Below are positions 11,984 to 32,647 of a stretch of DNA of 34,778 nt, one piece after another; within the stretch, counting starts at the first letter, position 1; each line of letters opens with the position of its first letter. The notes below the pieces were generated by a model. The model saw only the letters and a program-made list of their open reading frames with translations. It had not been told where the DNA came from and did no database searches. The DNA comes from Frankiales bacterium. GTDB lineage: Bacteria; Actinomycetota; Actinomycetes; Mycobacteriales; SCTD01. The stretch lies in contig JAOPVZ010000084.1 in assembly GCA_025965935.1 (NCBI GenBank), forward strand, positions 1 to 34,778. Reading direction: 5' to 3'. Made by a program: the position numbers and the translations under genes.

Positions 11984-11984
11984 C

Positions 11985-12001
11985 TATGGGCATGGGTCAT
12001 A
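11985..12001. promoter_or_regulatory. Candidate LysR-type operator (T-N11-A with dyad)
   Basis: TATGggcatgggtCATA between divergent LysR and SBP genes; T11987-N11-A11999. Confidence 0.5.
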
Positions 12002-12057
12002 ATTGGTATTAGACTTATAGCACGGATCACAGGCAACCTTTGTTTCGTCAGCGTCAA

Positions 12058-12075
12058 CGCGGGGTTCACCCCGCG
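12058..12075. promoter_or_regulatory. GC-rich hairpin in the 5' leader of the first ABC operon
   Basis: CGCGGGG-TTCA-CCCCGCG, perfect 7-bp arms, 34 nt before the GTG start. Confidence 0.55.
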
Positions 12076-12109
12076 ATACCAAGGGTCGCTGCGTCTCCCG
12101 GAGGTCCCC

Positions 12110-15809: not shown

Positions 15810-16213
15810 CCGGCCGCACGCAGCAGGGGGAGGCGCAGGACGCGCCCGACCATCGCAACCACCGCCACCAGGACGACCCCCACGAGTCGGGCGCGAACAA
15901 CCGGGCCGTCGGCACCCGGATGCTCTTCGAGAACGACCGGGTCCGTGTCTGGGAGATCGTGCTCGAGCCCGGCGAGCGTGCCCCGTTCCACCGGCACGAG
16001 GGCGACTACTTCTGGACCTGCGTCGAGCCCAGCGCAGCCCGCAGCCACACCGGCAGCGGTCGGTTCCAGGTGCAGCAGTACGCGATCGGTCAGACCAGCT
16101 ACTTCTCGTACCCTGAAGGGGAGTTCCTGGTCCATGACCTGGAGAACATCGGACCGAGCCGACTGCGGTTCGTGACGGTGGAGCTGGTCGAGCCGCGGAG
16201 GGCCGACGCGTGA
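15806..16213 (+). CDS. Cupin-domain protein
   Basis: NDRVRVWEIVLEPGERAPFHRHEGDYFWTCVEPSAARSH...; GTGA overlap with permease. Confidence 0.8.
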   Translation: MTGRTQQGEAQDAPDHRNHRHQDDPHESGANNRAVGTRMLFENDRVRVWEIVLEPGERAPFHRHEGDYFWTCVEPSAARSHTGSGRFQVQQYAIGQTSYFSYPEGEFLVHDLENIGPSRLRFVTVELVEPRRADA

Positions 16214-17148
16214 CCGGTATAGGTGTCCAGCTGCCAGTGGCGGGTGCGCACCCGTCCGTCCACGGGCTGCGGGCGATGGCGGAGCTCGTCGAGGACGAGG
16301 GCGCGCACTCCATCTGGGTCAGCGACCACATCCTGATGGTCGACGACGCCGCTTCCCGCTACCCCGGCAACGACGACGGGTCCACCTGGTGGAACCCGGA
16401 GGACGACTGGTACGAGTCGATGACGTCGTGTGCGTACATCGCGGCCGTCACTCATGAGGTGCGGATCGGCCCCGGCGTGCTCATCCTGCCGCAGCGCAAC
16501 GTGCTGGAGGTCGCGAAGCAGATCGCCACCCTGGACCAGCTCAGCGAGGGCAGGTTCGTCCTCGGGGTCGGCATCGGCTGGTCCAAGGAGGAGACGGAAG
16601 CGCTGGGCTACCCGTTCACCTCACGGGCCGGCCGGATGCAGGAGATGCTCCACGTGCTGCGTGACGCTCGGGGTGGCCGACCCCAGGAGTTCCACGGCAC
16701 GCACGTCGACGTCCCCCCGGGTGTGATCCTGCAGCCGCGTCCGGTCCAGCCCTCGGGCGTGCCGCTGATCGTCGGCGGTGAAGCTCCGGCGGCCCTGAAG
16801 CGGGCTGCCGTCCTGGGTGACGGGTGGCTCGCGCTCGCGAAGCACCAGTACGGCCCGTTCCCACTGGAACCGCTCGCGGAAGGGATCGCCGCGATCCGCG
16901 GCCACCGGGAGTCGCACGGCCTCGACGCTCCCTTCCAGCTCGTCCTCCGCCTCGTCCGGAGCCGGCCCGACGCGCTGCCCGACCTGCCCGCGCTGATCGA
17001 CGACCTGGCAGGCATGGGCTTCGACGAGGTCGTCATCCAGCCGCCCTGGGACGACCTCAACGAGACCAGGCGCTGGATCCGCCGCGCCTTGTCTGCCGTG
17101 TCTGTCTCGCCGCGGACGAAGGAGGTTGTCAGCCTTGCTCAAGGCTAA
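16210..17148 (+). CDS. LLM-class (F420- or flavin-dependent) oxidoreductase
   Basis: SIWVSDHILM, IGPGVLILPQRNVLEVAKQIATLDQLSEGRFVLGVGIGWSKEE; luciferase-like fold motifs; GTGA overlap. Confidence 0.92.
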   Translation: MTGIGVQLPVAGAHPSVHGLRAMAELVEDEGAHSIWVSDHILMVDDAASRYPGNDDGSTWWNPEDDWYESMTSCAYIAAVTHEVRIGPGVLILPQRNVLEVAKQIATLDQLSEGRFVLGVGIGWSKEETEALGYPFTSRAGRMQEMLHVLRDARGGRPQEFHGTHVDVPPGVILQPRPVQPSGVPLIVGGEAPAALKRAAVLGDGWLALAKHQYGPFPLEPLAEGIAAIRGHRESHGLDAPFQLVLRLVRSRPDALPDLPALIDDLAGMGFDEVVIQPPWDDLNETRRWIRRALSAVSVSPRTKEVVSLAQG

Positions 17149-17443
17149 GTTGACCGTGCGGATCCGGGGCAGTCACGACCGGCCGGACGAGTTCGAGGCG
17201 TGGATGACGCAGGACCACTTCCCGAAGATGCTGGCCTACCCCGGCGTGGAGGACGCCTCGCTGCTGCGCAAGTTCCTCGGCGACGATTCCTTCCAGTACA
17301 CGACCGTGTACACGTTCCGCGACGTCGAGACGCTGCGCGGGTTCATGTCGTCGGACGTGCTCGCGGGGCTGTCCGCAGAGTTCGACGAGCTCTGGGGCGA
17401 GGCGAGCACTCGTCAGCGCTTCGCCTACGAAGAGCTGTCTTGA
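17135..17443 (+). CDS. Small dimeric alpha/beta-barrel-like protein (EthD/ABM-like)
   Basis: TTG start with GGAGG 9 nt upstream (17126 TTG is an alternative); LLKAKLTVRIRGSHDRPDEFEAWMTQDHFPKMLAYPGVEDASLLRKFL...YTTVYTFRDVETLRGF. Confidence 0.6.
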   Translation: MLKAKLTVRIRGSHDRPDEFEAWMTQDHFPKMLAYPGVEDASLLRKFLGDDSFQYTTVYTFRDVETLRGFMSSDVLAGLSAEFDELWGEASTRQRFAYEELS

Positions 17444-18018
17444 CCTCTGAACCGCCGCCGTTTCCTGGGGCCATCCTCCGCTGGTCGCTGGTGCCGCCGG
17501 TGCAGGCCGCCGACGCGACCGCGGAACAGCTCGCGGTCATGGCGGGGTTCCACGCCGACCGGGGGAGCGAGGGCCAGCCGCTGCCCGACCTGTTCGCCTT
17601 GCTCTTCAACGCTCCGGAGGCCGCGGGCAGGCTGGCCGCAGTCACGGCGTACTGCCGGTTCCAGTCGGGCTTGAGCCCGCTGCTGCGCGAGGTGGCGCTC
17701 CTCGCGAGCTGCTACGCCACCGGCTTCGAGTACGAGGTCCGCTTTCACGAGCCGGTGGCCGTCGCTGCCGGGTTGAGCGGCGACGACCTGCAGGCCCTTC
17801 GCGAGGGGGCGTGGAACCGCGTCGCGCCTGAGGTCGCGGTGGTGGCGGAGCTCAGCCGGGCGGTGGCTCTGGGGACATCTGTACGTGGCAGCTCGCTGGA
17901 GGCTCGTGTCAGAGAGACGCTCTCCGCCAGGGAGATCGTCGACGTCACCGTCACGGCTGCTGCCTACCGGGCCCTGCAGTGCGTCGGCGCGGTCCTGACG
18001 AGCATGGAGGATCTCTGA
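17440..18018 (+). CDS. Carboxymuconolactone-decarboxylase/AhpD-like protein
   Basis: TTGA overlap; LFNAPEAAGRLAAVTAYCRFQSGLSPLLREVALLASCYATGFEYEVRFHEPVAVAAGLSGDDL. Confidence 0.75.
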   Translation: MTSEPPPFPGAILRWSLVPPVQAADATAEQLAVMAGFHADRGSEGQPLPDLFALLFNAPEAAGRLAAVTAYCRFQSGLSPLLREVALLASCYATGFEYEVRFHEPVAVAAGLSGDDLQALREGAWNRVAPEVAVVAELSRAVALGTSVRGSSLEARVRETLSAREIVDVTVTAAAYRALQCVGAVLTSMEDL

Positions 18019-18833
18019 TGCCCGAGCTGACCACGAACGACGGCGTCCAGCTCCACTACGAGGACAGTGGAAGCGGCCCGCCCATCGTCTTCCTGCCGGG
18101 CTGGTCCATGTCGTCCCGCTGGTTCGACGACCAGGCGTCAGCGCTGGCCGCCGACTACCGGGTGCTGCAGGTCGACCCGCGTGGGCACGGTCGCTCCGGC
18201 CAGCCTCGGCACGGCTACCGATTGGCCAGGAGCGCCCACGACCTCAACGAGCTGCTCGAGTCGCTCGACCTCCACGACGTCGTCGTGGTCGGCTGGTCGC
18301 TCGCCTGCAGCTCGGTGCTCTCCTTCTGGGAGCTCTTCCGCTCGCCGCGCGTACGCGGCCTGATCCTCACGGCGTTCACGCCCGTGATGCTTCCCCGGCA
18401 CGACTGGAGCTGGGGGTACGGCGACGATCCCCGTGAGGTGATCGAAGCGATCAGGTTGGACCACGCGGGGTTCGTCCGCTCGTTCATCCCGACGCTGTTC
18501 CACACGCACATTCCCGACGAGGGCGAGCTGGCGTGGATGGTCGATTCCTCCACGCAGGCGGCGCCCTGGGGGGTCGAGGCCATCCAGTGGGACCACTTCT
18601 TCCAGGACTGGCGGGACATGCTCCCGACGATCGACGTGCCCGTGCTGGTGATCGAGGGGGAGCAGGACAAGAACACGCCATGGCAGGCCGGCAAGTACGT
18701 CGCCGATGCCGTGCCCGACGGCCGCTTCGAGCTGTTCCACCACAGCTGCCACGTGCCGTTCTACGAGGAGCCGGAGAGGTTCACGGCAGTCGTCCGGGAG
18801 TTCCTCCTCTCGCTGCCTCGAGGCACCCCATGA
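18018..18833 (+). CDS. Alpha/beta hydrolase
   Basis: TGATG coupling; VFLPGWSMSSRWF, DPRGHGRSG, nucleophile elbow GWSLAC, VIEGEQDKNTP, C-terminal HSCHVPF. Confidence 0.9.
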   Translation: MPELTTNDGVQLHYEDSGSGPPIVFLPGWSMSSRWFDDQASALAADYRVLQVDPRGHGRSGQPRHGYRLARSAHDLNELLESLDLHDVVVVGWSLACSSVLSFWELFRSPRVRGLILTAFTPVMLPRHDWSWGYGDDPREVIEAIRLDHAGFVRSFIPTLFHTHIPDEGELAWMVDSSTQAAPWGVEAIQWDHFFQDWRDMLPTIDVPVLVIEGEQDKNTPWQAGKYVADAVPDGRFELFHHSCHVPFYEEPERFTAVVREFLLSLPRGTP

Positions 18834-19663
18834 CCACGGCGCTTCCCGACGAGGCACGCGGACAGGGCACCGCTCGCGGCCGGCTGCAAGGGCGGCGACT
18901 CATCGTCCTGGGTGCCGGGCAGCAGACGTACGGGCAAGCTGACCCTCCCGTCGGCCACGGCCGCGCGATCAGCGTGCTCGCGGCACGCGAGGGCGCCAGC
19001 GTCTTCTGCGTCGATCGTGACGCGGACGCGGCCGCCGAGACGGCAGCTGCCATCGTTGCGGAGGGTGGCACCGCGTGGGCGTCCGCCGCCGATGCCTCGG
19101 AGGAAGCAGACGTCGTCCGAGTCCTTGACGAGGCCAGGATGTGGCTCGGCGACCTGGACGGCCTGGTCCACAACGTGGGCATCGCCGAGGGGCAGGGCCT
19201 GGCCGGAACCTCGGTCGAGCAGTGGGACCGGGTCTTCGCCGTCAACGTCCGGTCGCACTTCCTGGCCTGCCGGCATGCCCTCCCTCGGATGCCCGCCGGG
19301 GCAGCGATCGTCCTCGTCTCGTCCCAGGCCGCGTTCTGGCCCGTCGGTGCCTGGCCTGCGTACAACGCCAGCAAGGCAGCCCTGAGCGGGCTGCTCCTGC
19401 AGGTCGCCAAGGAAGGCGCCGCGCTCGGGATCCGTGTCAACGCGGTCGCCCCGGGCCTCATGGACACCGCCCTCGGCGTCCACGTGGCCGGTGACTACCC
19501 GCAGCGGGCCAGCACCCCCGTCCCCCTCGGCCGCATGGGTACTGCCTGGGAGGTCGCCTATCCGGTCGTGTCGCTGCTGTCGACGGAGTCGAGCTACATC
19601 ACGGCGCAGACCCTGCTCGTCGACGGCGGTCTCACGGCGCTGCGGACCCCCGCAGCGCCGTGA
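18830..19663 (+). CDS. SDR family oxidoreductase
   Basis: ATGA overlap; Rossmann N-terminus VLGAGQQTYGQADPPVGHGRAIS, NVGIAEG, YNASK active site, LLVDGG C-terminus. Confidence 0.92.
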   Translation: MTTALPDEARGQGTARGRLQGRRLIVLGAGQQTYGQADPPVGHGRAISVLAAREGASVFCVDRDADAAAETAAAIVAEGGTAWASAADASEEADVVRVLDEARMWLGDLDGLVHNVGIAEGQGLAGTSVEQWDRVFAVNVRSHFLACRHALPRMPAGAAIVLVSSQAAFWPVGAWPAYNASKAALSGLLLQVAKEGAALGIRVNAVAPGLMDTALGVHVAGDYPQRASTPVPLGRMGTAWEVAYPVVSLLSTESSYITAQTLLVDGGLTALRTPAAP

Positions 19664-19718: not shown

Positions 19719-20912
19719 TTACGCCAGGCTCGCGAACACCGCGTCGGTGAGTGCCTGCACCCGCGCGTCGGTGCCCATGCCGATGACCATGTAGTTGGTG
19801 ACGTAGCCGATTCCGACGCGGCTCTGCGGGTCTGCGAAGGCCATGGCTCCGCCGAAGCCAGGGTGGCCGAAGGATCCTTCGTTCGGGCCCATCGGGTACC
19901 GGAGCGGCGAGTTCAGCGCGTACCCCAGTCCGAGCCGGCTGTGGATCTTGGAGATGACGTCGATCCCGTTGAACGTCTCCGTCGCGAACGTGCGGATGGC
20001 CGCGGGCGAGACCAGGTTCGTCCCCTCGAGCGTGCCGTCGCACGCCAGCGCGCCGTAGATCCGTGCCAGCGAACGAGCATCCGTGTGCGGGCCAGCTGCG
20101 GAGACCTCGGCGACGCGGAAGTCAGGGTGGTTGAACGTCTGCGTGAACACCGCATCCAGACGCCGGGCCGGCCCCATGAACAAGCACTGCCCGCTGAGCG
20201 TCGACGGGTTCATGCCCTCGAACGTCTCGTCGTTCCCGAAGGCGGGATCTGCCTGCAGCGGCGCGACCCGCGCATGCTCCTGCTGCGGCAGCCCGACCCA
20301 GTAGTCGAGTGACAGCGGCTTGACGATCTCGGTGTGGATGAACTCCCCGACCGTGCGGCCGGTGATCCGCCGCACCAGCTCACCGAGCAGGAACCCCATC
20401 GTGAGGCTGTGGTAGCCGGACTCGGTGCCCGGCTCCCACAGCGGAGCCGCCGCCGCCAGCGCCGCCACGATGTCCTCGTGCCGTTGGAAGCTCGCCGGCT
20501 CGTCTGCGCTGACGATGCGCTGGTAGTCGGGGAAGGTCGGCAGCCCAGCGGTGTGGTTCAGCAGCATGCGGGTGGTGACGGCCTCTTTCCCGTTGGCGCC
20601 GAACCCCTCCCACACCGTGCTGACAGGTGCGTCCAGTTCCAGCTGACCACGATCCACCAGCATCTGGATCGCCAGTGTCGTGACGCCCTTACCGGTCGAG
20701 AACCCGCAGACCAGGGTGTCCTCGGCCCACGGCTTGTCCGCCTCGGCCTCGCCTCCCCAGAGGTGCACGACCTGCTCGCCGAGGTGGTACGCCGAGAAGG
20801 CCGCCCCCTGGCCCGCACCTCTTGTGAGGGTGGCGCCGAAGGCATCCCTCACGCGCTCGAACCCGGGAGCTACCGAGCCCCTGACGGTTGCCACGTCATC
20901 ACCGCTGTGCAT
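19719..20912 (-). CDS. Serine hydrolase, class C beta-lactamase/EstB-like
   Basis: FSTGKGVTTLAIQML (SxxK), ESGYHSLTMGFLLGELVRRITGRTVGEFI, GHPGFGGAMAFADPQSRVGIGYVTN. Confidence 0.92.
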   Translation of the reverse strand: MHSGDDVATVRGSVAPGFERVRDAFGATLTRGAGQGAAFSAYHLGEQVVHLWGGEAEADKPWAEDTLVCGFSTGKGVTTLAIQMLVDRGQLELDAPVSTVWEGFGANGKEAVTTRMLLNHTAGLPTFPDYQRIVSADEPASFQRHEDIVAALAAAAPLWEPGTESGYHSLTMGFLLGELVRRITGRTVGEFIHTEIVKPLSLDYWVGLPQQEHARVAPLQADPAFGNDETFEGMNPSTLSGQCLFMGPARRLDAVFTQTFNHPDFRVAEVSAAGPHTDARSLARIYGALACDGTLEGTNLVSPAAIRTFATETFNGIDVISKIHSRLGLGYALNSPLRYPMGPNEGSFGHPGFGGAMAFADPQSRVGIGYVTNYMVIGMGTDARVQALTDAVFASLA

Positions 20913-20967: not shown

Positions 20968-21906
20968 TCAGGGCGCAGAACGGTCGCTGGAGGGGGTGGG
21001 CGCCGGGAAGTTCTCGCGCCAGTGGTCGGCGATCTCGGCTCGCCGGCAGACCCAGACGTCGTCGAACGTCTGCACGTACTTCACGAACCTGGCGAGTGCG
21101 GCGGCCCGGCCGGGACGGCCGGCCATGCGGCAGTGCAACCCGATGCTCATCATCTTGGGGGAGGTCGCGCCCTCCTCGTAAAGGAAGTCGAACGCGCCTC
21201 GGAGATAGGTCTCGAAGTCGTCGCCGCTGGAGAAGCCGGGGCTGATCGAGAACTTGAAGTCGTTGGCGTCCAGCGAGTACGGGACGAGCAGCACGGACTT
21301 GTCGCCGACCGTGGACCAGTGCGGCAGGTCGTCGTCGTACACATCGCTGTCGTAGCTGAAGCAACCCGCCTCGACGGCCAGTCGCCTGCTTCGGATGCTG
21401 GTGCGGCCGCCGTACCAACCGGCCGGCTTGGCCCCTGTCAGCTCCTCGATGATGTCGATGGAACGGCGGATGTGCTCGCGCTCCACGTCCTCCGGGACGT
21501 GCAGGTAGTCGATCCACCGCCAGTGGTGGCTGGCCACCTCGTGGCTCAGCTCGGCGAACGCGCGTCCCGCGGCCGGGTTGTCAGCGAGGGCCTTGCCCAC
21601 GGCGAAGACGGTCAGCGGAAGCCCCGCAGCCTCGAAGATGCGCAGCAGCCGCCACACACCTGCCCTGGCGCCGTAGTCGTAGAGCGACTCCGTGTTGACG
21701 TTGCGCAGTCCCACAAGTGGCTGCATGGGCGTCTCGCAGATGAACGTCTCCGAGTGGGAGTCACCGTTGAGGACGGTGTTCTCGCCACCCTCCTCGTAGT
21801 TGAGGACGAAGCTCACGGCGAGACGCGCACCGCCAGGCCACTGCGGGTCGGGCGGGTTGCTGCCGTAACCGACGAGGTCCCGGCCGTACTCCGGGGTGCT
21901 CAACAT
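20968..21906 (-). CDS. PuuE-like allantoinase/polysaccharide deacetylase-family C-N hydrolase
   Basis: MLSTPEYGRDLVGYGSNPPDPQWPGGARLAVSFVLNYEEGGENTVLNGD; EVASHHWRWIDYLHVPEDVEREHIRRSIDIIEELTGAKPAGWYGGRTS. Start at 21906; the ORF track extends further upstream. Confidence 0.88.
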   Translation of the reverse strand: MLSTPEYGRDLVGYGSNPPDPQWPGGARLAVSFVLNYEEGGENTVLNGDSHSETFICETPMQPLVGLRNVNTESLYDYGARAGVWRLLRIFEAAGLPLTVFAVGKALADNPAAGRAFAELSHEVASHHWRWIDYLHVPEDVEREHIRRSIDIIEELTGAKPAGWYGGRTSIRSRRLAVEAGCFSYDSDVYDDDLPHWSTVGDKSVLLVPYSLDANDFKFSISPGFSSGDDFETYLRGAFDFLYEEGATSPKMMSIGLHCRMAGRPGRAAALARFVKYVQTFDDVWVCRRAEIADHWRENFPAPTPSSDRSAP

Positions 21907-22043
21907 CTTCCCGCGTGACAAGCCGAGGGCACGGCTTTTCCGGCCGGACGGGGATGCGGGCTGTAGATTCCGCCTCCGTGACGGATCGTCCGACGACGCA
22001 TGCGCACCTCTTCCGACTCGGGGGCCTCGGCGTGGAGTGCCGC

Positions 22044-22080
22044 CAACCTTGTACTTGTCAGGTTGTCTGTCAAGAGACAG
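22044..22080. promoter_or_regulatory. Interlaced inverted repeats, candidate GntR/FadR-type operator in divergent intergenic region
   Basis: TTGTCAG-GTTGT-CTGTCAA (22055-22073), CAACCT-N10-AGGTTG (22044-22065), CTGTC-AAGA-GACAG (22067-22080). Confidence 0.6.
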
Positions 22081-22146
22081 CATCGTCGTGAGGATCTTCT
22101 TGCGAAGGTGCAAGGCACCCTCACGTTCCGCCTAGATTGGACACCC

Positions 22147-22896
22147 ATGTCGCTCAGCGCACTCCGTCACGGCAGCCTCTCGGACGACGTCGCCGAGCGG
22201 GTGCTGGCTGTCATCAGCAGTGGCGAGTTCAGCGCCGGCGACCGGCTTCCCACCGAGCCTGTCCTGGCTCAGATGCTCGGCGTGGGGCGCACGTCCGTCC
22301 GGGAAGGCATCGCCAAGCTCAGGATGCTCGGAGCGGTCGAGGTGCGACGCGGCCTGGGCACGTTCGTCACCGGACGTGGCGCCGCCGACCCGCAGTTCGC
22401 CTTCCTGCAGTGGGCCGCCGAGCACCGCTACCGCATCGTCGACCTGTTCGAGGTGCGCACGGCGCTGGAGACCACCGCTGCCTCGCTGGGGAGTCAGCGA
22501 GCCACCGAGGCCGAGCTGGACAACCTCGAGGCGGCGGCCAACGCGCACGTCTCGGCGCACGAAGCCGGCGACCTCGCCGACCTCGTGGACAGTGACCAGG
22601 ACTTCCATCTGGCGCTGGTGCGCTGCAGCCACAACGAAGCCCTGCTGCACGTCTACGAGATCCTGGTTCCGCAGTTCCGGGACTACCGCGGCAAGTCGCT
22701 CGCGCTCGAGGGGGCGGCGCACCGGTCCGGTGAAGACCACCTCGCGGTCGTCGCCGCGGTTCGGGCGCACGACAGCGAGGCTGCCAGTCGCGCGGTGTCC
22801 AAGCACCTCGCGACCTTGTACGAGGAGATCGTGGCTGCGGGCTCCAGCGCGGACGCCGGTGCTGACGCCGGACGTCCGCACAAGCCCGCCGGCTGA
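22147..22896 (+). CDS. FadR-subfamily GntR transcriptional regulator
   Basis: LSDDVAERVLAVISSGEFSAGDRLPTEPVLAQMLGVGRTSVREGIAKLRMLGAVEVRRGLGTFV; FCD-like C-terminal domain. Confidence 0.93.
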   Translation: MSLSALRHGSLSDDVAERVLAVISSGEFSAGDRLPTEPVLAQMLGVGRTSVREGIAKLRMLGAVEVRRGLGTFVTGRGAADPQFAFLQWAAEHRYRIVDLFEVRTALETTAASLGSQRATEAELDNLEAAANAHVSAHEAGDLADLVDSDQDFHLALVRCSHNEALLHVYEILVPQFRDYRGKSLALEGAAHRSGEDHLAVVAAVRAHDSEAASRAVSKHLATLYEEIVAAGSSADAGADAGRPHKPAG

Positions 22897-23032
22897 GCCG
22901 AGAACGCCTTCCGCGTCAGGGCCGCGACGCACCGCGGCCGTCAGCGCCCAGCCTGAGCCCGATGGGCTGCGCCGGCCGTGCCGTGCCTTCCGACGGCCGG
23001 TCGACCTGGCCCCCCGATGTGACATGAACAAT

Positions 23033-23073
23033 GGTATGACTTCAGGTTGACAGACGTCTGATGACTCCATACC
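23033..23073. promoter_or_regulatory. Roughly nested inverted repeats upstream of second SBP; possible second GntR site
   Basis: GGTATG (23033-23038) and CATACC (23068-23073) flank the perfect palindrome CAGACGTCTG (23051-23060); TCAGGTTG(A/T)C shared with the 22058 region. Confidence 0.45.
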
Positions 23074-23131
23074 TTCCTGTCACTCGTTGGACCCTCCGGT
23101 CCCGGTTCACCCTCTTCGAAAGGTGCGGGAT

Positions 23132-24163
23132 GTGAAGTTCCGTCCGCGTTCACTCGCTCTGGCCCTGGTCCTGCTCGCGGCTCTCACCGCCTGCAGCGGC
23201 GCCGCGGGCTCCACCGCATCGTCGGGCTCAGGCGGTACCAAGCAGATCCGGGTCGCCTTCTTCTCCGCGGTTCAGGCCAACACGTTCATCGCGGCCATGT
23301 ACAAGGGCATGCAGAGCGCCGCCGCGAAGCAGGGGAACGTGTCCATCACGGTCTTCGATGCGAACTTCGACGCCACCAAGCAGCTCAACCAGGTCGAGGA
23401 CGCCCTGACCACGAAGCGCTTTGACGCCTTCGTCATCGTGCCCCTCAACTACGCGGCCATGGTGGCCCCGACGAAGACGGCCATCGCCCAGAAGATCCAG
23501 GTCGTCACCTGGAACTGGCCGATCGGGAACAAGCTCGACACCGTCGAGCCGCAGGTCCCCGGGATGGCTGGGTCGGTCCTGACTCCCGCCACCGTCGACG
23601 GCGCCCACCACGTCGAGATGATCAACGCTGCTTGCCAGGGTTTGACGACGTGCAACGTGGCCTACGTCGCCGGCGCGATCTCGGGAGCCTTCGACGTGGC
23701 AACGATGAACCTCATCAAGGAGAACGCGAAGACGCACCCGAACATCCACGTCGTCCAGGAGGTGGAGGGCGGCTACGCGCGGAACCCCTCTCTCAAGGTC
23801 GTGCAGAACGTCCTGCAGGCGCACCCGAACGTGAACGTCATCGACGCTCACGGCGACCAGATGGCGCTTGGTGCAGAGGATGCTGTGAAGTCGGCGAACC
23901 TGGTCGGCAAGGTGAAGATCCTCGGCGGAGGCGCCAGCGTGATCGGCGTCACCGCGGTTCGCGCCGGTCGCTGGTTCGGCACCACCCTGACCCTGCCGGA
24001 GACCGATGGCACGACCTCGATGGACCTCGCGATCAAGGGCGTTCTCGGGCAGCCCGTTGCCGACAAGGGAGTCGACAACGCCTCAAATGGTCAGCTGCCG
24101 GCCATCCTCACCCAGGCGAACGCCGCTTCCTGGAAGGCCTTCCAGGCTCAGTGGGCCGGGTAG
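23132..24163 (+). CDS. Ribose-type ABC importer substrate-binding lipoprotein (system 2)
   Basis: GTG start; MKFRPRSLALALVLLAALTACSGAAGS lipobox; RVAFFSAVQANTFIAAMYKGMQSAAAKQGNVSITVFDANFDATKQLNQVEDAL. Confidence 0.92.
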   Translation: MKFRPRSLALALVLLAALTACSGAAGSTASSGSGGTKQIRVAFFSAVQANTFIAAMYKGMQSAAAKQGNVSITVFDANFDATKQLNQVEDALTTKRFDAFVIVPLNYAAMVAPTKTAIAQKIQVVTWNWPIGNKLDTVEPQVPGMAGSVLTPATVDGAHHVEMINAACQGLTTCNVAYVAGAISGAFDVATMNLIKENAKTHPNIHVVQEVEGGYARNPSLKVVQNVLQAHPNVNVIDAHGDQMALGAEDAVKSANLVGKVKILGGGASVIGVTAVRAGRWFGTTLTLPETDGTTSMDLAIKGVLGQPVADKGVDNASNGQLPAILTQANAASWKAFQAQWAG

Positions 24164-24184
24164 TCCTGCCACGGTAAATCAAGC

Positions 24185-24227
24185 TCCCCGGCCCACTGTC
24201 GTCCTCCAAAGGGCAGTGGGTCGGGGA
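24185..24227. terminator. Intercistronic stem-loop between SBP and ATPase genes (attenuator/processing-type)
   Basis: TCCCCGGCCCACTG - 15 nt - CAGTGGGTCGGGGA; 14-bp stem with one G-U pair; no U-tract. Confidence 0.75.
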
Positions 24228-24291
24228 TTCCACGGGCGCTGACGCCGCCACGATCGCCGCTTGTGTCCAACTCGTCGGGAGGAGCCCGTCC

Positions 24292-25809
24292 GTGGCAACT
24301 GCGCCGCACATGGAACTGCGCAACGTGGGAAAGAGGTTCGGCGGTGTGCAGGCTGTCGCCGATCTGTCGCTGAGCATCGACCGCGGCACCATCCACGCGC
24401 TCGTCGGGGAAAACGGAGCCGGCAAGTCCACGGTCGGGAAGATGATTGCCGGGGTGCACCGACCCGACGCAGGCGAGCTGCTGCTCGACGGCCGGGTCGT
24501 GCGCTACCACGCGCCGCGAGACGCCCTGGCCGACGGCGTGACGATCATCGCCCAGGAGCTCGCACTCGTGCCGCAGCGATCCGTGCTGGAGAACGTCTTC
24601 CTGCGCAGCGGGCGGGCCAGCCACCTGACTGCACGCGACAAGCGTCAGCGGTATGCCGAGCTGCAGGAGGAGGCCGGCTTCGAGGTCCCGGCAGACGTGC
24701 GGGTCGCCTCCCTCCGTGTGGCGGACCAGCAGAAGGTCGAGATCCTCAAGGCGCTCGCCCGGGACGCGCAGCTCATCGTCATGGACGAGCCGACAGCCGT
24801 CCTGAACTCTGCGGAGACCGAGCGGCTCTTCCACGCGGTGCGCGCGCTGCGGGACCGGGGAACCTCGATCGTCTTCGTCTCGCACTTCTTGGAGGACGTC
24901 CTCAGCCTGGTGGACACGGTCACCATCCTGCGCGACGGCAAGCACATCCGTACCGGTCCTGCTGCGCAGGAGTCGCCGGAGACCTTGGTGACAGGCATGC
25001 TGGGGCGCACGTTCGACACCAGCTTCCCGGAGAAGGTCCCGGTCGCGCAGGATGCACCGGTCGTTGCGGCGGTGCGGGGACTGTGCGCCGCGGGCTTCGT
25101 CAAGGACATCTCCTTCGACGTCCGCGCCGGCGAGATCGTCGGTCTCGCCGGCCTCGTGGGGAGCGGGCGCTCCGAGGTGGCAAGGGCGATCTTCGGCGCT
25201 GACAAGAGGGACGCCGGCGACGTCGAGGTAGCGGGAGAGGCGGTCGACATCGCTTCCCCCCGGGATGGCGTGAGAGCCGGCATCGCCTTGCTCCCTGAAG
25301 ACCGCAAGGGCCAGGGCCTGCTGATGCAGCGCTCGATCCTGGACAACATCACGTTGCCGCACCTGGACCGGGTCAGCGCAGGGGGAGTCGTCTCGCCGGT
25401 ACGCGAGCAGAAGGCCGTCGATGACCTGATCTCGCGGATCGGCATCCGAGCCAGCAGTCCGGCCGCGAAGGTGAACACGCTGTCGGGGGGCAACCAGCAG
25501 AAGGTGCTGTTCGCGAAGTGGCTGTTCGGCCGTCCCAGCCTGCTGATCACGGACGAGCCCACCCGCGGCGTGGACGTCGGTGCCAAGCGCGCCATCTACG
25601 AGCTCATCCACTCCCTGGCAGCAGAAGGCGTAGGAGTGCTGGTGATCTCCTCTGAGCTCGAAGAGGTCCTCGGCCTCGCTCATCGCGTCCTGGTGCTGCG
25701 CGAGGGTCGGCTCGTTGCCGAGTTCGATCAATCACAGATGAGCGAGGAGAGCGTCATGCGGGCGATCTTCGCGGCCGATGCCGGCGACGGCGAAGGGTTG
25801 GCGTCGTGA
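24292..25809 (+). CDS. Ribose-type tandem-NBD ABC importer ATPase (system 2)
   Basis: LVGENGAGKSTVGKMIAGV, LIVMDEPTAVLNSAE, LLPEDRKGQGLL, LSGGNQQKVLFAKWLFGRPSLLITDEPTRGVDVGAK. Confidence 0.96.
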   Translation: MATAPHMELRNVGKRFGGVQAVADLSLSIDRGTIHALVGENGAGKSTVGKMIAGVHRPDAGELLLDGRVVRYHAPRDALADGVTIIAQELALVPQRSVLENVFLRSGRASHLTARDKRQRYAELQEEAGFEVPADVRVASLRVADQQKVEILKALARDAQLIVMDEPTAVLNSAETERLFHAVRALRDRGTSIVFVSHFLEDVLSLVDTVTILRDGKHIRTGPAAQESPETLVTGMLGRTFDTSFPEKVPVAQDAPVVAAVRGLCAAGFVKDISFDVRAGEIVGLAGLVGSGRSEVARAIFGADKRDAGDVEVAGEAVDIASPRDGVRAGIALLPEDRKGQGLLMQRSILDNITLPHLDRVSAGGVVSPVREQKAVDDLISRIGIRASSPAAKVNTLSGGNQQKVLFAKWLFGRPSLLITDEPTRGVDVGAKRAIYELIHSLAAEGVGVLVISSELEEVLGLAHRVLVLREGRLVAEFDQSQMSEESVMRAIFAADAGDGEGLAS

Positions 25810-26798
25810 CAGTTCCTGAGGTCGAGACACCCCTGACACCTGGGGCTCGGCGACTGTCGAGCTCCTGGTTGCGCGTGGAAGCCGTCCGTGACTACGGGAT
25901 CGTGTTCGCGTTCCTGGCGATGTTCATCACGCTGAGCCTGTCGAGCCCCGTCTTCCTGACGTCAGCGAACCTGCTCAACGTGCTGAACCAGTCATCCGAG
26001 GTCGGGATCATCGCGGTGGCAGGCACTCTGGTGGTGATCGCCGGCGGGTTCGACCTGTCCGTCGGCGCGATCTACGCGGTCGGCGGTGTCGTCGCAGCCC
26101 AGACCGTCCCCGACATCGGAGTGCCCGGTGCCTTGCTCGCCGGCGTGCTGGTCGGTCTCGGGTTCGGGATCTGCAACGGGGCGATCGTGACCGTCGGGCG
26201 CATCAACCCGTTCGTCGCGACCCTGGCGTCGCAGATCATCGTTCGAGGCATCGCGCTGGTGCTGACCGGGGGGACGTTGATCACCGTGACCGACCCGTCA
26301 TTCGCCACGCTGGGCCAGGGCTCGGTGTTCACCATCCGCTACGCGGTGCTGGTGTGGCTGGGCTTCGCGGTGATCGTGGCACTGCTCCTGGGTCGCACGA
26401 CGTTCGGCCGGTACGTGTACGCGGTCGGTGGCAACGCGGAAGCCGCGAGGCTCTCCGGTATCCGGGTGGGTCTCGTGCGTGGGGTCACGTTCGCGTTGTC
26501 GGGTCTGGCCGCGGGGCTCGCCGGCGTGGTGGTCGCGTCGCGTGTCTCGACCGGACAGGCCGACACCGGCGCTGGCCTGGAGCTGGCGGCCATCGCGGCG
26601 ATCGTGATCGGTGGAACCTCCATCCTCGGCGGCGAGGGCGCCATCTGGCGCACCGTCCTCGGCGTCGTGCTGATCACGCTGATCGGCAACGGTTTCAACC
26701 TGCTGAACGTCGATCCCACGTACCAGCAGATCTTCCAGGGCGTCATCATCCTGCTCGCCGTCGGCATCGACGCGTGGGCCCGACGGAGCCGGCGGTAG
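25806..26798 (+). CDS. Ribose-type ABC importer permease (system 2)
   Basis: GTGA overlap; VVIAGGFDLSVGAIYAVGGVVAA, GRYVYAVGGNAEAARLSGIRV, GGTSILGGEGAIWRTVLGVVLITLIGNGFNLLNV. Confidence 0.95.
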   Translation: MTVPEVETPLTPGARRLSSSWLRVEAVRDYGIVFAFLAMFITLSLSSPVFLTSANLLNVLNQSSEVGIIAVAGTLVVIAGGFDLSVGAIYAVGGVVAAQTVPDIGVPGALLAGVLVGLGFGICNGAIVTVGRINPFVATLASQIIVRGIALVLTGGTLITVTDPSFATLGQGSVFTIRYAVLVWLGFAVIVALLLGRTTFGRYVYAVGGNAEAARLSGIRVGLVRGVTFALSGLAAGLAGVVVASRVSTGQADTGAGLELAAIAAIVIGGTSILGGEGAIWRTVLGVVLITLIGNGFNLLNVDPTYQQIFQGVIILLAVGIDAWARRSRR

Positions 26799-26802
26799 TG
26801 GC

Positions 26803-28038
26803 GTGGTCGACAGCCCAAGGGCTCTCGTGAGCAGCGGAGCGCTGGTCCTCCGGGACGGCGTCGCGTTCGTAGGCCCCGAGCTCGAGCGCAGGCCGTTCTC
26901 GACCCTTCGCATGGAAGACGGCCTCATCACGGGGATCGACGAGAGCGTGAGGGGGTTCGACGGCCTGGTCCTCGACCTCGCGGGGGCCTTCGTCGTCCCT
27001 GGTCTCATCGACTGCCACGTGCACTTCGACCTGGCGGCGCACCCAGCCGCGTACGGCCACTGGAGCGCGTCGCCGTTGACGAGGTCGATGACATGCCTCC
27101 ACAACGGACTGGTGGCACTGACCAAGGGCATCACGACTGTCCGGGACCTCGGCTGCATCGACCACCTCGTCCTGGACTACGCCGGGCGAGTGGAGAGCGG
27201 GTCCCTGATCGGCCCTCGGGTGATCGCCGCCGGACGTCCGATCACCATCACCGGAGGCCATTTCGCGCAGTACGGCCGGGTGGCTGACGGACAGGCCGAG
27301 GTCCGCAAGGCCGTTCGCGAGCAGATCGGCGCCGGTGCCCGGGTGGTCAAGCTCATGGCGACCGGTGGGATCTCCTCACCCGGCGACCCGACCGCGAGCA
27401 CCCTCACGCAGGAGGAGATGGCGGTCGCCGTGGAGGAGGCGCACAAGCGCGGCATCACGGTGGCTGCGCATGCCCACAACCGGGCCGGGATCCTGGCGGC
27501 ACTGCAGGCAGGGGTCGACTCGATCGAGCACGCGGCCTTCGCCGACGACGAGTCCCTCGAAGCCATCATCTCGCACCAGGCGACGCTCGTCCCGACGGTC
27601 AGTGCCCTCAACAACATCGCGCCGGACGTAGGCATCCCGATCGAGACCGTGCGGAAGAGCCTGCAGGCGCGGCAGACCTACGTGGAGAGCACCGGCAGGG
27701 CCATTTCTGCCGGAGTCAGGATCGCGGCAGGAACGGATGCCGGCACCGCCTTGAACCCGATCGGCGGTCTTGTCGACGAGCTGGAGATGTACTGCGCAGG
27801 TGGCATGTCGTGGTTGGAAGCGGTTGCCGCCGCGACCGTGAACGCCGGTGCCCTTGTGGGCGGCGGCCTGGGTGTCATCGCGACCGGGCGACCGGCGGAC
27901 GTGATCGTGGTCGACGCGGATCCGGGCGAAGCGCTCACGACACTGCGCGAGCCACTGCACGTCATCAAAGGCGGCGCCCTCGTGGATCTGCCCTGGGTCA
28001 GGCAGACCATTGCCGAGGTTCGAGCGGTGGCGTCATGA
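26803..28038 (+). CDS. Metal-dependent amidohydrolase (Xaa-Pro dipeptidase/imidazolonepropionase-like)
   Basis: VVPGLIDCHVHFD, VVKLMATGG (candidate carboxy-Lys), VAAHAHN, SIEHA, AAGTDAGT, ATGRPADVIVVDADP. Confidence 0.92.
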   Translation: MVDSPRALVSSGALVLRDGVAFVGPELERRPFSTLRMEDGLITGIDESVRGFDGLVLDLAGAFVVPGLIDCHVHFDLAAHPAAYGHWSASPLTRSMTCLHNGLVALTKGITTVRDLGCIDHLVLDYAGRVESGSLIGPRVIAAGRPITITGGHFAQYGRVADGQAEVRKAVREQIGAGARVVKLMATGGISSPGDPTASTLTQEEMAVAVEEAHKRGITVAAHAHNRAGILAALQAGVDSIEHAAFADDESLEAIISHQATLVPTVSALNNIAPDVGIPIETVRKSLQARQTYVESTGRAISAGVRIAAGTDAGTALNPIGGLVDELEMYCAGGMSWLEAVAAATVNAGALVGGGLGVIATGRPADVIVVDADPGEALTTLREPLHVIKGGALVDLPWVRQTIAEVRAVAS

Positions 28039-28790
28039 CCGGGCTGCTGACGGGCCGGGTCGCCCTGGTGACGGGAGCGGCGAGCGGCATCGGCGCTGCC
28101 ATTGCCGAGGCCTACGCGCGCGAAGGGGCGACCCTCTGCCTGGTCGACATCTCGACCGGGACCGGCCTCGCCGACGTGGCGAAGCGCTGTGAGGACTGGG
28201 GAGTCCGAACCATCACCCTGCTCGCCGACGTCTCCAAGGAGGACGACGTCACGCGAGCCTTCGCTGATGCCGAGGCCGAGCTCGGTGCAGTAGACATCCT
28301 CGTCAACAACGCCGGGATCCTGACCGAGTGCAGGGTCAGTGATATGTCGGCCGCGATGTTCGACGAGCTGATCGCGGTCGACCTGCGCAGCGTCTTCCTG
28401 TGCAGCCGGGCTGCCATTCCGGGCATGCAGCGCAAGCAGTTCGGCCGGATCATCAACGTGTCCTCCCAGCTGGGCCAGAAGGGCGGTGTCGGCCTGGCGC
28501 ACTACAGCGCGGCCAAGGCGGGCGTCATCGGCTTCACCCGTGCACTGGCTCGCGAGCTCGCTCGGGACGGGATCACCGTGAACTCCATCGCGCCGGGTCC
28601 GATCCACACCGCGCTCTCGTCCGACCTCTCGGACGAGTGGATCCGCACCCTCACCGAAAGCCTTCCGCTCGGCCGTTTCGGGTACCCGGATGAGGTAGCC
28701 CCCACCGCCGTGCTGCTGGCGAGCGAGCCAGGCGGCAACCTGTACACCGGCCAGACCCTTGGGCCCAACAGCGGCGACGTCATGCCGTGA
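28035..28790 (+). CDS. SDR family oxidoreductase
   Basis: ATGA overlap; VTGAASGIGAAIAEAYAREGA, NNAGI, HYSAAKAGVIGFTRALARELARDGITVNSIAPGPI. Confidence 0.95.
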   Translation: MTGLLTGRVALVTGAASGIGAAIAEAYAREGATLCLVDISTGTGLADVAKRCEDWGVRTITLLADVSKEDDVTRAFADAEAELGAVDILVNNAGILTECRVSDMSAAMFDELIAVDLRSVFLCSRAAIPGMQRKQFGRIINVSSQLGQKGGVGLAHYSAAKAGVIGFTRALARELARDGITVNSIAPGPIHTALSSDLSDEWIRTLTESLPLGRFGYPDEVAPTAVLLASEPGGNLYTGQTLGPNSGDVMP

Positions 28791-28812
28791 CGTGCCAAGC
28801 GGAAAGGCTGAC

Positions 28813-29505
28813 GTGATCGAGGTCTTCGGCAAGGAGGTCTACACAGAGCTCGCCGAGCTCGTGGACCCTGCCCACACTGCGCTCGTCCTGGTGGACATGC
28901 AGCGCGACTTCCTGGAACGGGACGGGTTCTTCGGTGGCCTGGGCATCGACTTGACCATGTACGACCGGACCCGGCCACGCCTTGCCGGCCTGCTGGCCGC
29001 AGCGCGACAACAGGGTCTGCTGGTGGTCCATGTGCAGAACACGGCGCTCGCGGACGGGCGCAGCGACTCTCCAGCGCAGCTCCGCTTCTACCTGCGCCTG
29101 CACGCGGCGGCCCGAGATGACGGACCTCCGTTGCGTTACACCGTGCCGGGGACGCCGGGGCACGACTTCGTCGAGGAGTTCGTGCCGAAGGCCGGTGAGC
29201 TGACCGTCCGGAAGTACCGGTCCAGCGGGTTCTGGGGCACGAACCTCGACCTGGTGCTCGAGAGCAACGGCATCAAGACGGTCGTGGTCGCTGGCTGCAC
29301 GACCGAGGGTTGCGTGGAGTCGACGGCACGCGACGCGCTGTTCTGCAACTACTACGTGGTCATCGCCGCTGACTGCGTCGGGAGCGATGACCAGGAGCAG
29401 CACGACGCGTCGATGCTGCTGATGCGGCACCGGTTCGATCTCGCCGACTCCTCAGACCTCATCGCGACATGGGACGAGGCTTCGTCTGCGTCGGCGGGGG
29501 AGTGA
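28813..29505 (+). CDS. Isochorismatase-family cysteine hydrolase (amide/ureido hydrolase type)
   Basis: LVLVDMQRDFLERDGFF (Asp), VRKYRSSGFWGTNLDLVLESNGIKTVVVAGCTTEGCVESTARDA (Lys and Cys). Confidence 0.9.
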   Translation: MIEVFGKEVYTELAELVDPAHTALVLVDMQRDFLERDGFFGGLGIDLTMYDRTRPRLAGLLAAARQQGLLVVHVQNTALADGRSDSPAQLRFYLRLHAAARDDGPPLRYTVPGTPGHDFVEEFVPKAGELTVRKYRSSGFWGTNLDLVLESNGIKTVVVAGCTTEGCVESTARDALFCNYYVVIAADCVGSDDQEQHDASMLLMRHRFDLADSSDLIATWDEASSASAGE

Positions 29506-29512
29506 AGCGCGT

Positions 29513-30802
29513 GTGAGGATCGTCGATGTGGTGTGCGTGCCCGCGCGCGCCGGCTTCTTCACCGACGATGCGGCAGCCATAGCCGCCGGGGCGAAGCACG
29601 ATGGCTTTCGGTACGCCGGTCCGCCGCTCACCCCGGGTTTCACGCAGATCCGCCAGCCCGGGGAGGCGTTGTCGGTGCTGCTCCTGCTCGAGGACGGTCA
29701 GGTCGCCCATGGGGACTGCGCCGCCGTGCAGTACTCGGGTGTCGGCGGGCGCGATCCAGTCTTCACCGCTGCCCTCGCCGGCAATGCCGTGCTGGAGGCC
29801 GTCGCCCCGGCGCTGATCGGTGCGGAGGTTGACGACTTCGCCGCTCTTTCGGCGCGCCTCGACGACCTCCGGTTCGGCGGAAGGCCGCTGCACACTGCGG
29901 TCCGGTACGGCGTGTCACAGGCGCTGCTCGACGCTGCCGCTCGCGCTCGGGGGATCACCATGGCAGAGGTGGTGCGCGACGACTGGGACACGGGTGTCGA
30001 GCTCGGCCCGGTGCCGATGTTCGTGCAGTCCGGCGACGACCGCTACGCCAACGTGGACAAGATGATCCTCAAGCAGGCCGGGGCGCTGCCGCACGGCCTG
30101 GTGAACAACGTGGAGACGAAGCTCGGCCTCCAGGGCGAGATCCTGGCCGAGTACGTGACGTGGGTGCGGGACCGGGTGCTCGCACTACGAGCCGGCTCCG
30201 ACTACGTACCGACGTTGCACTTCGACGTCTACGGGACAGTGGGCGCGGCCTTCGGCGGGGACACCGAGCTGATCGCGGACTACCTGGCGCGGCTGGGGGA
30301 GCTGGCCGCCCCGTTCGCCCTCACGATCGAGCAAGCTGTCGACGCGGGGAGCACCCCGGACCAGGTCAAGGCGATGTCGTCCTTGCGGGAGGCCTTGAGC
30401 AGCCGGGGGTCGAACGTCTCGCTGGCTGTCGACGAGTGGTGCAACACCTTGGCGGACATCGAGCAGTTCGTCGCCGCTCGAGCGGTCGACGTCGTGCACG
30501 TGAAGACGCCGGACCTGGGCGGGCTGCACGCAACGATCGAGGCGCTGCTGCTCGTCCGTCGTTCCGGGTTGCGCGCGTACTGCGGTGGCACCTGCAACGA
30601 GACAGACCGGTCCGCGCAGGTGTGCGCCCACGTCGCCATGGCCTGCGGAGCGGCGCAGGTGCTGGCCAAGCCGGGCATGGGCGTCGACGAGGGCCTGATG
30701 GTCGTCGGGAACGAGATGGCTCGGGTGACGGCGCTGGCAGCGTCCCGCAGCGCCCGTCCGGACGCCACGCCAGCGGTTGACGGTCGGCGGCGCTCGTCGT
30801 AA
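29513..30802 (+). CDS. Methylaspartate ammonia-lyase
   Basis: AAVQYSGVGGRDPVF, LPHGLVNNVETKLG, LHFDVYGTVGAAF, LAVDEWCNTLADI, VHVKTPDLGG, YCGGTCNETDRSAQVC, AAQVLAKPGMGVDEGLMVVGNEM: characteristic MAL motifs (enolase superfamily). Confidence 0.93.
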   Translation: MRIVDVVCVPARAGFFTDDAAAIAAGAKHDGFRYAGPPLTPGFTQIRQPGEALSVLLLLEDGQVAHGDCAAVQYSGVGGRDPVFTAALAGNAVLEAVAPALIGAEVDDFAALSARLDDLRFGGRPLHTAVRYGVSQALLDAAARARGITMAEVVRDDWDTGVELGPVPMFVQSGDDRYANVDKMILKQAGALPHGLVNNVETKLGLQGEILAEYVTWVRDRVLALRAGSDYVPTLHFDVYGTVGAAFGGDTELIADYLARLGELAAPFALTIEQAVDAGSTPDQVKAMSSLREALSSRGSNVSLAVDEWCNTLADIEQFVAARAVDVVHVKTPDLGGLHATIEALLLVRRSGLRAYCGGTCNETDRSAQVCAHVAMACGAAQVLAKPGMGVDEGLMVVGNEMARVTALAASRSARPDATPAVDGRRRSS

Positions 30803-31427
30803 GTTCCTGGACATCAGTACAGATAGTCTCAAGGCCGAGCAGCCTGCGACCGACGGGCGCCGCGCCCGTGGAGCAGCCAGTCGGCAGGCGATCCTGGAGG
30901 CCACGGCCAGGGTGATCGCGACGGCCGGACTCACCTCGGTGACCCACCGAGCGGTGGCGGCCGAGGCGGGGGTCTCGACGGCCTTGACGACGTACCACTT
31001 CGCCTCCCTCGACGACCTGCTGCAAGCGACGCTGTCGTCGCTGTCGGCGACCGCTGTCGCGCGGCTCGCCGCGGCGGCCGAGCTGGCCCGGTCCGGAGAG
31101 CTGTCGCTGGCTGACGCCGCGGCGACCTTCCTGATCGAGGAGCTCGGGCCGAACCGCCACAGCTTCATCGCCAGTCTCGAGCTGCAGTTCGCCTCGGTGC
31201 GCCGCCCCGCATGGTCGCCCGTGATGACCAGCACGCATGAGGCGTTCGTCGAGCTGATCCAGCACTACGTCAATGACGAGGAGGCCGCGAGGGCCATCTT
31301 CTCGGCGGCCTTCGGGTTCGCGGTCCTGCACGTTCTGGAGGGCCGCACGCCACCCAAGGGCACCTGCCGGAAGTTCGTGGCGGACCTTGTCAGCCGCTAC
31401 GACGTGCCGGACCCACGCCGGTCATGA
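30777..31427 (+). CDS. TetR family transcriptional regulator
   Basis: SRQAILEATARVIATAGLTSVTHRAVAAEAGVSTALTTYHFASLDDLLQATL; overlaps the 3' end of the MAL gene; exact start uncertain. Confidence 0.9.
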   Translation: MTVGGARRKFLDISTDSLKAEQPATDGRRARGAASRQAILEATARVIATAGLTSVTHRAVAAEAGVSTALTTYHFASLDDLLQATLSSLSATAVARLAAAAELARSGELSLADAAATFLIEELGPNRHSFIASLELQFASVRRPAWSPVMTSTHEAFVELIQHYVNDEEAARAIFSAAFGFAVLHVLEGRTPPKGTCRKFVADLVSRYDVPDPRRS

Positions 31428-32647
31428 CCGACACGGACCAGGGAGCAGCCTCGATGAGCACTCGACCAGAACGCGGCACGTCAGAGATCGCCTGGCCGCG
31501 CTCTCGGGGTACGAGGTCGAGCCTGATCGCTCAGTTCGGCTCCGAGCGCGCCGACCTGGCCGGATGGGCGCTCACGTCCGGCGACCCGCTGGCGGACGCC
31601 GTCGTGGCGGACGTCCACGACGGGCACCCGGAGGCTCGCCAGGCGGTTCAGCTGGGCATCCGGAACGGGCTGGAATCCCTCGACGACCCGCCGGACTCTG
31701 TCGTCGCCCTCCTGAGCCACACGGAGCGGTTGCCCGCCTACGCCGACGACCACCTGCTCGACCACGGGTCGGCACCCTTCTTCACCATGCCGCCTCCCGT
31801 GCACCTGATCTCGCTGAGCGCAGGCGCCTTGATCCGGGTGTACGAGTCACCCTCGATCGCCGCCGTGCTGACCAGCACCGGGCGCCTCGTCGACGGGGCC
31901 GAGCGGCGTATCCGGGAGACCGGAACGTGGGTCGCGACGGCGATGCTGCCCGGCTCGCTGAGGGTCGGCCAGCCGGGTTACGTGGCCACGTTGCAGGTGC
32001 GCCTGTTGCACGCCAACATGCGCCGGCTCGTGCGCAGCCGTGGTTTCGACGAGAGCGCGTACGGCACACCGATCAACCAGGTGGATCTCGCACGTACCTG
32101 GATGGACTTCACCATCACGTCGCTGCGGGCCGAGGAGCTGATGGGTTTCGGGCTGACGACCAGCGAGACGGCCTCGCTCTACCGCTGCTGGTGGTTGCTA
32201 GGCCACCAGCTGGGCATCGACGCGCGCCTGATCGAGGGCATTTCGAGCCATGAGCAGGCCCGTCGTGTCGACGAGCTCCTGCAGGCCGTCACCGGCCCGC
32301 TCGTCGCCGACTCGGCGACGCTCGCCGCAGCCACCCTCGGGTCGATCGCGGGCCAGCTCCACGAGGTGCTCAACGTGCCGGAGCCGATAGGTTCCAGGGC
32401 ATTGAGCGCACTCGCCCGACGGTTCCACGGCGATGCCATCGCCGACGAGCTGGGGATCGCGTCGTCCGGCGTGGCCGATGCGGTCATCGCGCGGGCGATC
32501 TCCGTGATCCGATCCCGTCGGGTCAAGGCGCGCCAGGACTCCGTGCGGTGGCAGCACAACCAGGACAAGAACCTCGCCGAGCTGCGCGCCCAGCTCGCCG
32601 AGGCCGAGCAAGCCCAGTACCAGACCCCTGGCCAGCTCATCCACTAG
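31424..32647 (+). CDS. Oxygenase MpaB-family (DUF2236) protein
   Basis: ATGA overlap; QVRLLHANMRRLVRSRGFDESAYGTPINQVDLARTWMDFTITSLRAEELMGFGLTTSE; internal ATG 31454 is an alternative start. Confidence 0.8.
   Translation: MTDTDQGAASMSTRPERGTSEIAWPRSRGTRSSLIAQFGSERADLAGWALTSGDPLADAVVADVHDGHPEARQAVQLGIRNGLESLDDPPDSVVALLSHTERLPAYADDHLLDHGSAPFFTMPPPVHLISLSAGALIRVYESPSIAAVLTSTGRLVDGAERRIRETGTWVATAMLPGSLRVGQPGYVATLQVRLLHANMRRLVRSRGFDESAYGTPINQVDLARTWMDFTITSLRAEELMGFGLTTSETASLYRCWWLLGHQLGIDARLIEGISSHEQARRVDELLQAVTGPLVADSATLAAATLGSIAGQLHEVLNVPEPIGSRALSALARRFHGDAIADELGIASSGVADAVIARAISVIRSRRVKARQDSVRWQHNQDKNLAELRAQLAEAEQAQYQTPGQLIH

Follow-up and report, generated by a model that had tools for sequence, protein, structure and literature searches.

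Methylaspartate ammonia-lyase (MAL) is commonly taken as a marker of glutamate fermentation via glutamate mutase. In clostridia and enterobacteria this methylaspartate pathway comprises glmS-glmL-glmE and MAL, which yields mesaconate (PMC4682846). In the haloarchaeal methylaspartate cycle MAL is followed by a class III CoA-transferase and mesaconyl-CoA hydratase (PMC5592240). Here we describe a MAL gene from a Frankiales bacterium (metagenome-assembled genome, MAG; GCA_025965935.1). It lies on contig JAOPVZ010000084.1, whose 34,778 nucleotides we call the window, directly downstream of genes for an ABC importer, an M38-type amidohydrolase, a short-chain dehydrogenase (SDR1) and an isochorismatase-fold cysteine hydrolase (ISC). 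The window shares MAL with the fermentation pathway, but has neither glutamate mutase nor mesaconase/citramalate lyase beside MAL; instead there are hydrolases, SDRs, importers and a His at position 329 of MAL. Its relatives resemble the haloarchaea in the class III CoA-transferase and mesaconyl-CoA-hydratase-like proteins that follow MAL, but differ in having no glutamate mutase, a one-domain hydratase and hydrolytic input genes. In the window's own genome the downstream genes are unlinked, and the haloarchaeal combination of mesaconate CoA-transferase, mesaconyl-CoA hydratase and glutamate mutase was not found.

The operon (positions 23132 to 30802) probably encodes a catabolic route to mesaconate whose starting point is not glutamate but an amide-, peptide- or amino-sugar-like compound. 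The gene families, the lack of mutase, the conserved linkage, the MAL clade and the Q329H exchange were established computationally; the order of reactions, the class of substrate and 3-methylaspartate itself we infer. The observation stands, and its conservation goes beyond what a single genome could reveal. A genome-wide profile search (TIGR01503, PF06368) returned no glutamate mutase E subunit from the window's genome (a MAG, 84.8% complete), and the absence of a mutase partner for this MAL, noticed in an initial annotation of the window, thus holds genome-wide. TIGR01503 was silent in all controls and the test rests on PF06368, which detects the expected positives. MAL genes were retrieved from other genomes by tblastn, the open reading frames (ORFs) around 54 MAL loci were clustered, and family searches followed. 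Genomes with clostridial-clade MALs carry a GlmE match of at least 698 bits in 9/10 cases, and the PF06368 search found canonical glmE in 0/44 genomes with MALs of the actinobacterial/Dormibacterota type. Three of these 44 do show weaker matches above the cut-off. Nonomuraea has one of 291 bits, on a contig other than that of MAL; in Paractinoplanes a 274-bit match lies near MAL; and Microbispora corallina has a fragment of 27 bits. A further two MALs, from Chloroflexota, form an outgroup, and one of these genomes has a 596-bit GlmE match. With so many MAGs in the set, absence from any single genome carries little weight, unlike the pattern across all 44.

The window MAL is full-length to TIGR01502 (552 bits; cut-off 286), matches MAAL_N and MAAL_C, and is 55-56% identical to the MAL of Clostridium tepidiprofundi. 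Aligned to C. tetanomorphum MAL, it keeps the base K331, H194, the metal ligands D238/E273/D307, Q172, T360 and C361 (residue roles from PMC7241714), as well as the methyl pocket F170/Y356/L384. Position 329, which touches the C4 carboxylate and aids enolate stabilisation (PMC7241714), is His in the window; Gln at this site is a trait of characterised MALs rather than one that defines the family. In the MAL tree 11 clostridial-type sequences form one fully supported branch and the window falls among 42 others, with Gln329 in 11/11 of the former and His in 41/42 of the latter, window included. Q329H is a lineage difference and not the result of many independent changes. Since the remaining catalytic and methyl-pocket residues are unchanged, a 3-alkyl aspartate stays the likeliest substrate. 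A perfect Gln/His split at this position was rejected: L045 carries Gln although no mutase was found there, and L052 combines His with the weak 274-bit match to GlmE. The latter locus (L052:10001-13700, Paractinoplanes deccanensis) holds a MAL of 53% identity on the same contig as that match, within about 2 kb, and may be a 3-methylaspartate-containing natural-product locus.

Three neighbourhood settings of MAL were seen. In clostridia a three-gene cluster lies upstream, its third gene coinciding with the GlmE match; we read it as glmS-glmL-glmE, of which the E subunit was tested and the other two were named from gene order and length. The second setting joins a peptide-type importer to M55, Asparaginase_2, M20, M19, DUF885 and ApbA/amidase genes. 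The third, to which the window belongs, is centred on ISC. Because the second and third coincide in L039, L041 and L068, both may belong to a single broader metabolism. Among the loci with peptide-type ABC importers, M55, Asparaginase_2, M20, M19 and DUF885 but no glutamate mutase are L022, L019 and L010; loci of this type also have ketopantoate-reductase-like and amidase genes, sometimes fused. The record behind L039/L069 is labelled Spirochaetaceae, yet the genome search groups this genome (G155) in the window's own class, and it is probably mislabelled.

ISC orthologues (58-71% identity) lie in 14 MAL loci. A genome-wide search found ISC in seven further mutase-free MAL genomes at 65-70% and in two at 44%, and in 0/7 mutase-type genomes; the 58-71% orthologues thus occur in 21/39 mutase-free MAL genomes. 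Searching 395 genomes of the class for ISC gave four besides the window's own (4/394), all with MAL within about 10 kb; two of them are the genomes of L004 and L039. ISC is enriched in mutase-free MAL genomes (Fisher P about 3e-20 with a larger, conservative denominator), and the direction is clear despite the kinship that inflates P. Outside Dormibacterota ISC is always paired with the SDR. SDR1 shares 67-75% identity with the SDRs of L079, L080 and L081 and 48-53% with those in the remaining ISC loci, and orthologues of the M38 amidohydrolase (59-61%) adjoin ISC/SDR in L080 and L081. The trio of amidohydrolase, SDR and ISC is found again in two Pseudonocardiales genomes and SDR with ISC in a third, all three of which encode a mutase-free MAL elsewhere in the genome. 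The repeated co-occurrence of ISC, SDR and amidohydrolase in other MAL-bearing genomes shows that these genes are not neighbours by accident. The conservation among relatives on which the initial annotation depended is therefore present, and its view of a catabolic cluster with a C-N hydrolase adjoining MAL is supported.

By sequence and fold ISC groups with biuret, triuret and ureidoacrylate hydrolases, and the best Foldseek matches of its AlphaFold model (mean pLDDT 81.9) are biuret hydrolases. It has in common with biuret hydrolase (BiuH), triuret hydrolase and RutB the fold, nine family residues and an Asp-Lys-Cys triad (PMC5806882, PMC7948467). The nine, listed as active-site residues of the isochorismatase-like family in PMC5806882, are all invariant in ISC (D33, Q35, F38, K139, F145, T148, G166, C172 and T176; triad D33-K139-C172). 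However, Lys145 of BiuH is replaced by an invariant Ser, Gln215 has no counterpart, and identity in the structural alignment is 27-33%. A plain biuret hydrolase was rejected on these missing biuret-holding residues and on a score of 116 bits against model NF050097, below its cut-off of 370. ISC is likely an amide or carbamoyl C-N hydrolase; given a biuret-hydrolase fold without the biuret-holding Lys and Gln, carbamoyl cleavage is possible. Five Arg residues (R96, R100, R141, R178 and R212) are likewise invariant and would be well matched to a substrate with acidic groups.

Three alternative modules occur next to ISC and SDR1, never two at one locus. Seven loci have a glutamine-synthetase-like (GS) protein with an Amidohydro_2 protein (AmH2), sometimes with an EgtC-like protein; seven have a PuuE-like protein with or without a GNAT protein; and the window, L080 and L081 have the M38 amidohydrolase and/or two short Amidohydro_2 proteins, L079 the short ones only. 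GS and PuuE-like genes never co-occur (chance 0.01, kinship ignored), and the two modules may be alternative ways of protecting and releasing an amine. Six Dormibacterota loci have ISC and MAL without any such module. The fullest PuuE-type cluster (L070:11566-17485) also encodes an aminotransferase, an RraA-like aldolase, two CN_hydrolases and a cyclase-family protein, and could help to pin down the substrate.

The fate of mesaconate is more readily seen in the relatives. A CoA-transferase flanks MAL at 23/55 loci, mostly directly downstream, and a subset of loci adds MaoC genes (mesaconyl-CoA hydratase domain, RipB/Ich-like) and RipC/Ccl-like genes. In this they recall the RipABC pathway of itaconate degradation, but the MaoC-like and CitE-like proteins match the mesaconyl-CoA hydratase and RipC/Ccl profiles well below the curated equivalog cut-offs, and entry would be through MAL rather than itaconate. 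Genes for mesaconate-utilising enzymes, which the initial annotation suggested seeking, adjoin MAL in relatives; in the window genome RipB/RipC-type genes were either not found or distant. That genome has one class I fumarase homologue (PF05681; contig C288, unlinked to MAL), which may be an ordinary fumarase; as enterobacterial class I fumarases can act as mesaconase (PMC4682846), it might do so as well.

On our preferred reading, the ABC transporter would import a small compound of amide, peptide or amino-sugar type; amide-type C-N bonds would be cut by the M38 amidohydrolase and ISC, and an alcohol oxidised by the SDR. The product would be 3-methylaspartate or one of its close analogues, and its deamination by MAL would give mesaconate and ammonia. 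In relatives the class III CoA-transferase, mesaconyl/itaconyl-CoA-hydratase-like and citramalyl-CoA-lyase-like proteins would take mesaconate to central metabolites; in the window genome the fumarase homologue could hydrate it instead. Several observations weigh against this route. The window-type module is not near MAL in L079-L081, roughly one in two mutase-free MAL genomes lacks ISC (e.g. Streptosporangiaceae and Geodermatophilaceae), and among the loci examined a ribose-type importer near MAL was seen at the window alone. The window genome, a MAG, is incomplete; searching it returned no RipB-like/mesaconyl-CoA-hydratase-like gene and only distant or weak homologues of the RipC-type C-C lyase. 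Its best class III CoA-transferase (contig C241, 42% identical) is not linked to MAL, with an enoyl-CoA hydratase-like ORF nearby and no MaoC/CitE seen.

The initial annotation had proposed that PuuE opens a cyclic ureide to an N-carbamoyl compound, from which ISC strips the carbamoyl group to leave 3-methylaspartate for MAL. We know of no source for such a substrate, and consider this scheme improbable. It draws on the kinship of ISC to the ureide hydrolases, and on the covalent binding of N-carbamoylaspartate by BiuH (PMC5806882), although the ureide contacts of BiuH are missing in ISC. The window PuuE passes the allantoinase model TIGR03212 (431.9 bits; cut-off 424.6), keeps the canonical motifs and is 57% identical to Pseudomonas fluorescens PuuE. 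PuuE-like genes do stand beside ISC in seven loci, as the suggested co-occurrence check required, but they form a different subfamily (at least 77% mutual identity, 42-48% to the window and P. fluorescens proteins, with 42-44% for the window PuuE against those beside other MALs) with altered active-site motifs (GRT to REM, GLHCR to G[IL]HPR); orthology with the window PuuE is ruled out by identity. Moreover, most ISC loci have the GS-like or M38/short-amidohydrolase module in place of a PuuE-like gene. Being close to true allantoinase and far from the MAL-linked clade, the window PuuE may simply serve allantoin use. No finding points to 5-methyl-dihydroorotate or a hydantoin, and in the literature available nothing relevant turned up that connects MAL to allantoinase, to isochorismatase, to carbamoyl/hydantoin chemistry or to microcystin. 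Somewhat unlikely, though better placed, is a scheme in which an amide is split into 3-methylaspartate, for MAL, and an amino alcohol whose amine is protected, oxidised by SDRs and deprotected. The mutual exclusion of the modules and the agreeing family annotations argue for it, and the gamma-glutamylated putrescine pathway offers an analogous logic. Doubtful to the same degree is its detail, with protection by gamma-glutamyl (GS-like) or acetyl (GNAT) groups and release by AmH2/EgtC-like proteins or by the PuuE-like protein as a deacetylase. However, the window has no GS or GNAT beside ISC, L031 and L078 have no GNAT, the Dormibacterota loci have nothing beyond ISC, MAL and, in some, the CoA-transferase, and the exclusivity could track lineage instead of function.

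3-Methylaspartate is found in lipopeptides and microcystins, and MAL could clear 3-methylaspartyl residues freed from non-ribosomal peptides by unusual peptidases, a reading we also hold to be rather unlikely. Many MAL loci pair peptide-type importers with the M55 D-aminopeptidase, Asparaginase_2 (isoaspartyl-peptidase family), M20, M19, DUF885 and amidase proteins, and in L041, L039 and L068 some members of this set accompany ISC. Set against this, the window has a sugar-type importer and no such peptidase except its one M38 amidohydrolase, and no paper in the literature available links the two. That the neighbours are unrelated, with MAL leftover or moonlighting in an operon for an ordinary substrate, seems very unlikely: the importer is not conserved beside MAL and MAL is rare (4/396 genomes of the phylum), but ISC lies near MAL both in 14 loci selected by MAL and in 4/4 genomes picked by ISC alone, the MAL active sites are conserved, and mesaconate genes adjoin MAL in relatives.

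A non-glutamate route into MAL, the general idea of the initial annotation, is supported by the absence of mutase, the conserved linkage and the mesaconate genes of relatives. On the best reading it is a conserved mutase-independent route from an amide to mesaconate, apparently undescribed so far. More tentatively, it could represent a recurring pathway of Actinobacteria and Dormibacterota from an environmental amide or peptide to 3-methylaspartate, with a dedicated ISC subfamily, a Q329H MAL clade and interchangeable protection/deprotection modules for the other half of the substrate. The mutase-free clade makes up the majority of the 54 MAL loci retrieved with the window query and has recurring hydrolase and redox neighbours; it points to a nutrient not yet described and supplies a small set of candidate genes for testing. 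Glutamate fermentation should not be annotated from MAL alone.

Features of the MAL region of the window, with the evidence for each assignment
Feature	Position	Strand	Basis
Beta-lactamase-family serine hydrolase, LipL/esterase-like	19719..20912	-	profile matches
PuuE-type allantoinase, canonical clade	20968..21905	-	TIGR03212; 57% to P. fluorescens PuuE
GntR/FCD-family regulator	22147..22896	+	profile matches
Sugar-type substrate-binding lipoprotein	23132..24163	+	Peripla_BP_4
ABC ATPase, double-domain sugar type	24292..25809	+	profile matches
ABC permease, ribose/arabinose type	25806..26798	+	BPD_transp_2, AraH-like
M38-type amidohydrolase, Xaa-Pro/Arg carboxypeptidase-like	26803..28038	+	profiles, structure matches, orthologues
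SDR1 (short-chain dehydrogenase), ISC partner	28035..28790	+	profiles, orthologues
ISC (isochorismatase-fold cysteine hydrolase)	28813..29505	+	profiles, orthologues, AlphaFold/Foldseek
MAL, mutase-free clade, His at position 329	29513..30802	+	TIGR01502, MAAL_N + MAAL_C, active-site columns, tree

Gene identities rest on Pfam and NCBIfam profile searches, backed by matches to solved structures, and these bear out every gene first named in the region (MAL, importer, amidohydrolase, SDR, isochorismatase, GntR and PuuE). The ISC start was moved to 28813 on the basis of orthologue starts, and that of PuuE was set at 21905 from the DNA. The overlap of the amidohydrolase and SDR genes, with gaps of 4 bp between permease and amidohydrolase and 7 bp between ISC and MAL, is consistent with a single operon from the binding protein to MAL. 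The GntR gene sits between this operon and the divergent PuuE gene. Both genes of the divergent arm that had been described are present, but the serine hydrolase falls outside the span of 20968-30802 assigned to the system. In the two intergenic regions flanking GntR, the best 14-mer match to a shared operator was no better than in shuffles. Downstream, a TetR-like regulator ORF overlaps the 3′ end of MAL and is followed by an MPAB/Lcp-type oxygenase-family protein (30777-32647). Upstream (11624-19663), genes for a further ribose-type ABC importer, with its binding protein, ATPase and permease, precede those for a luciferase-like monooxygenase, an alpha/beta hydrolase and an SDR, possibly another catabolic cluster.

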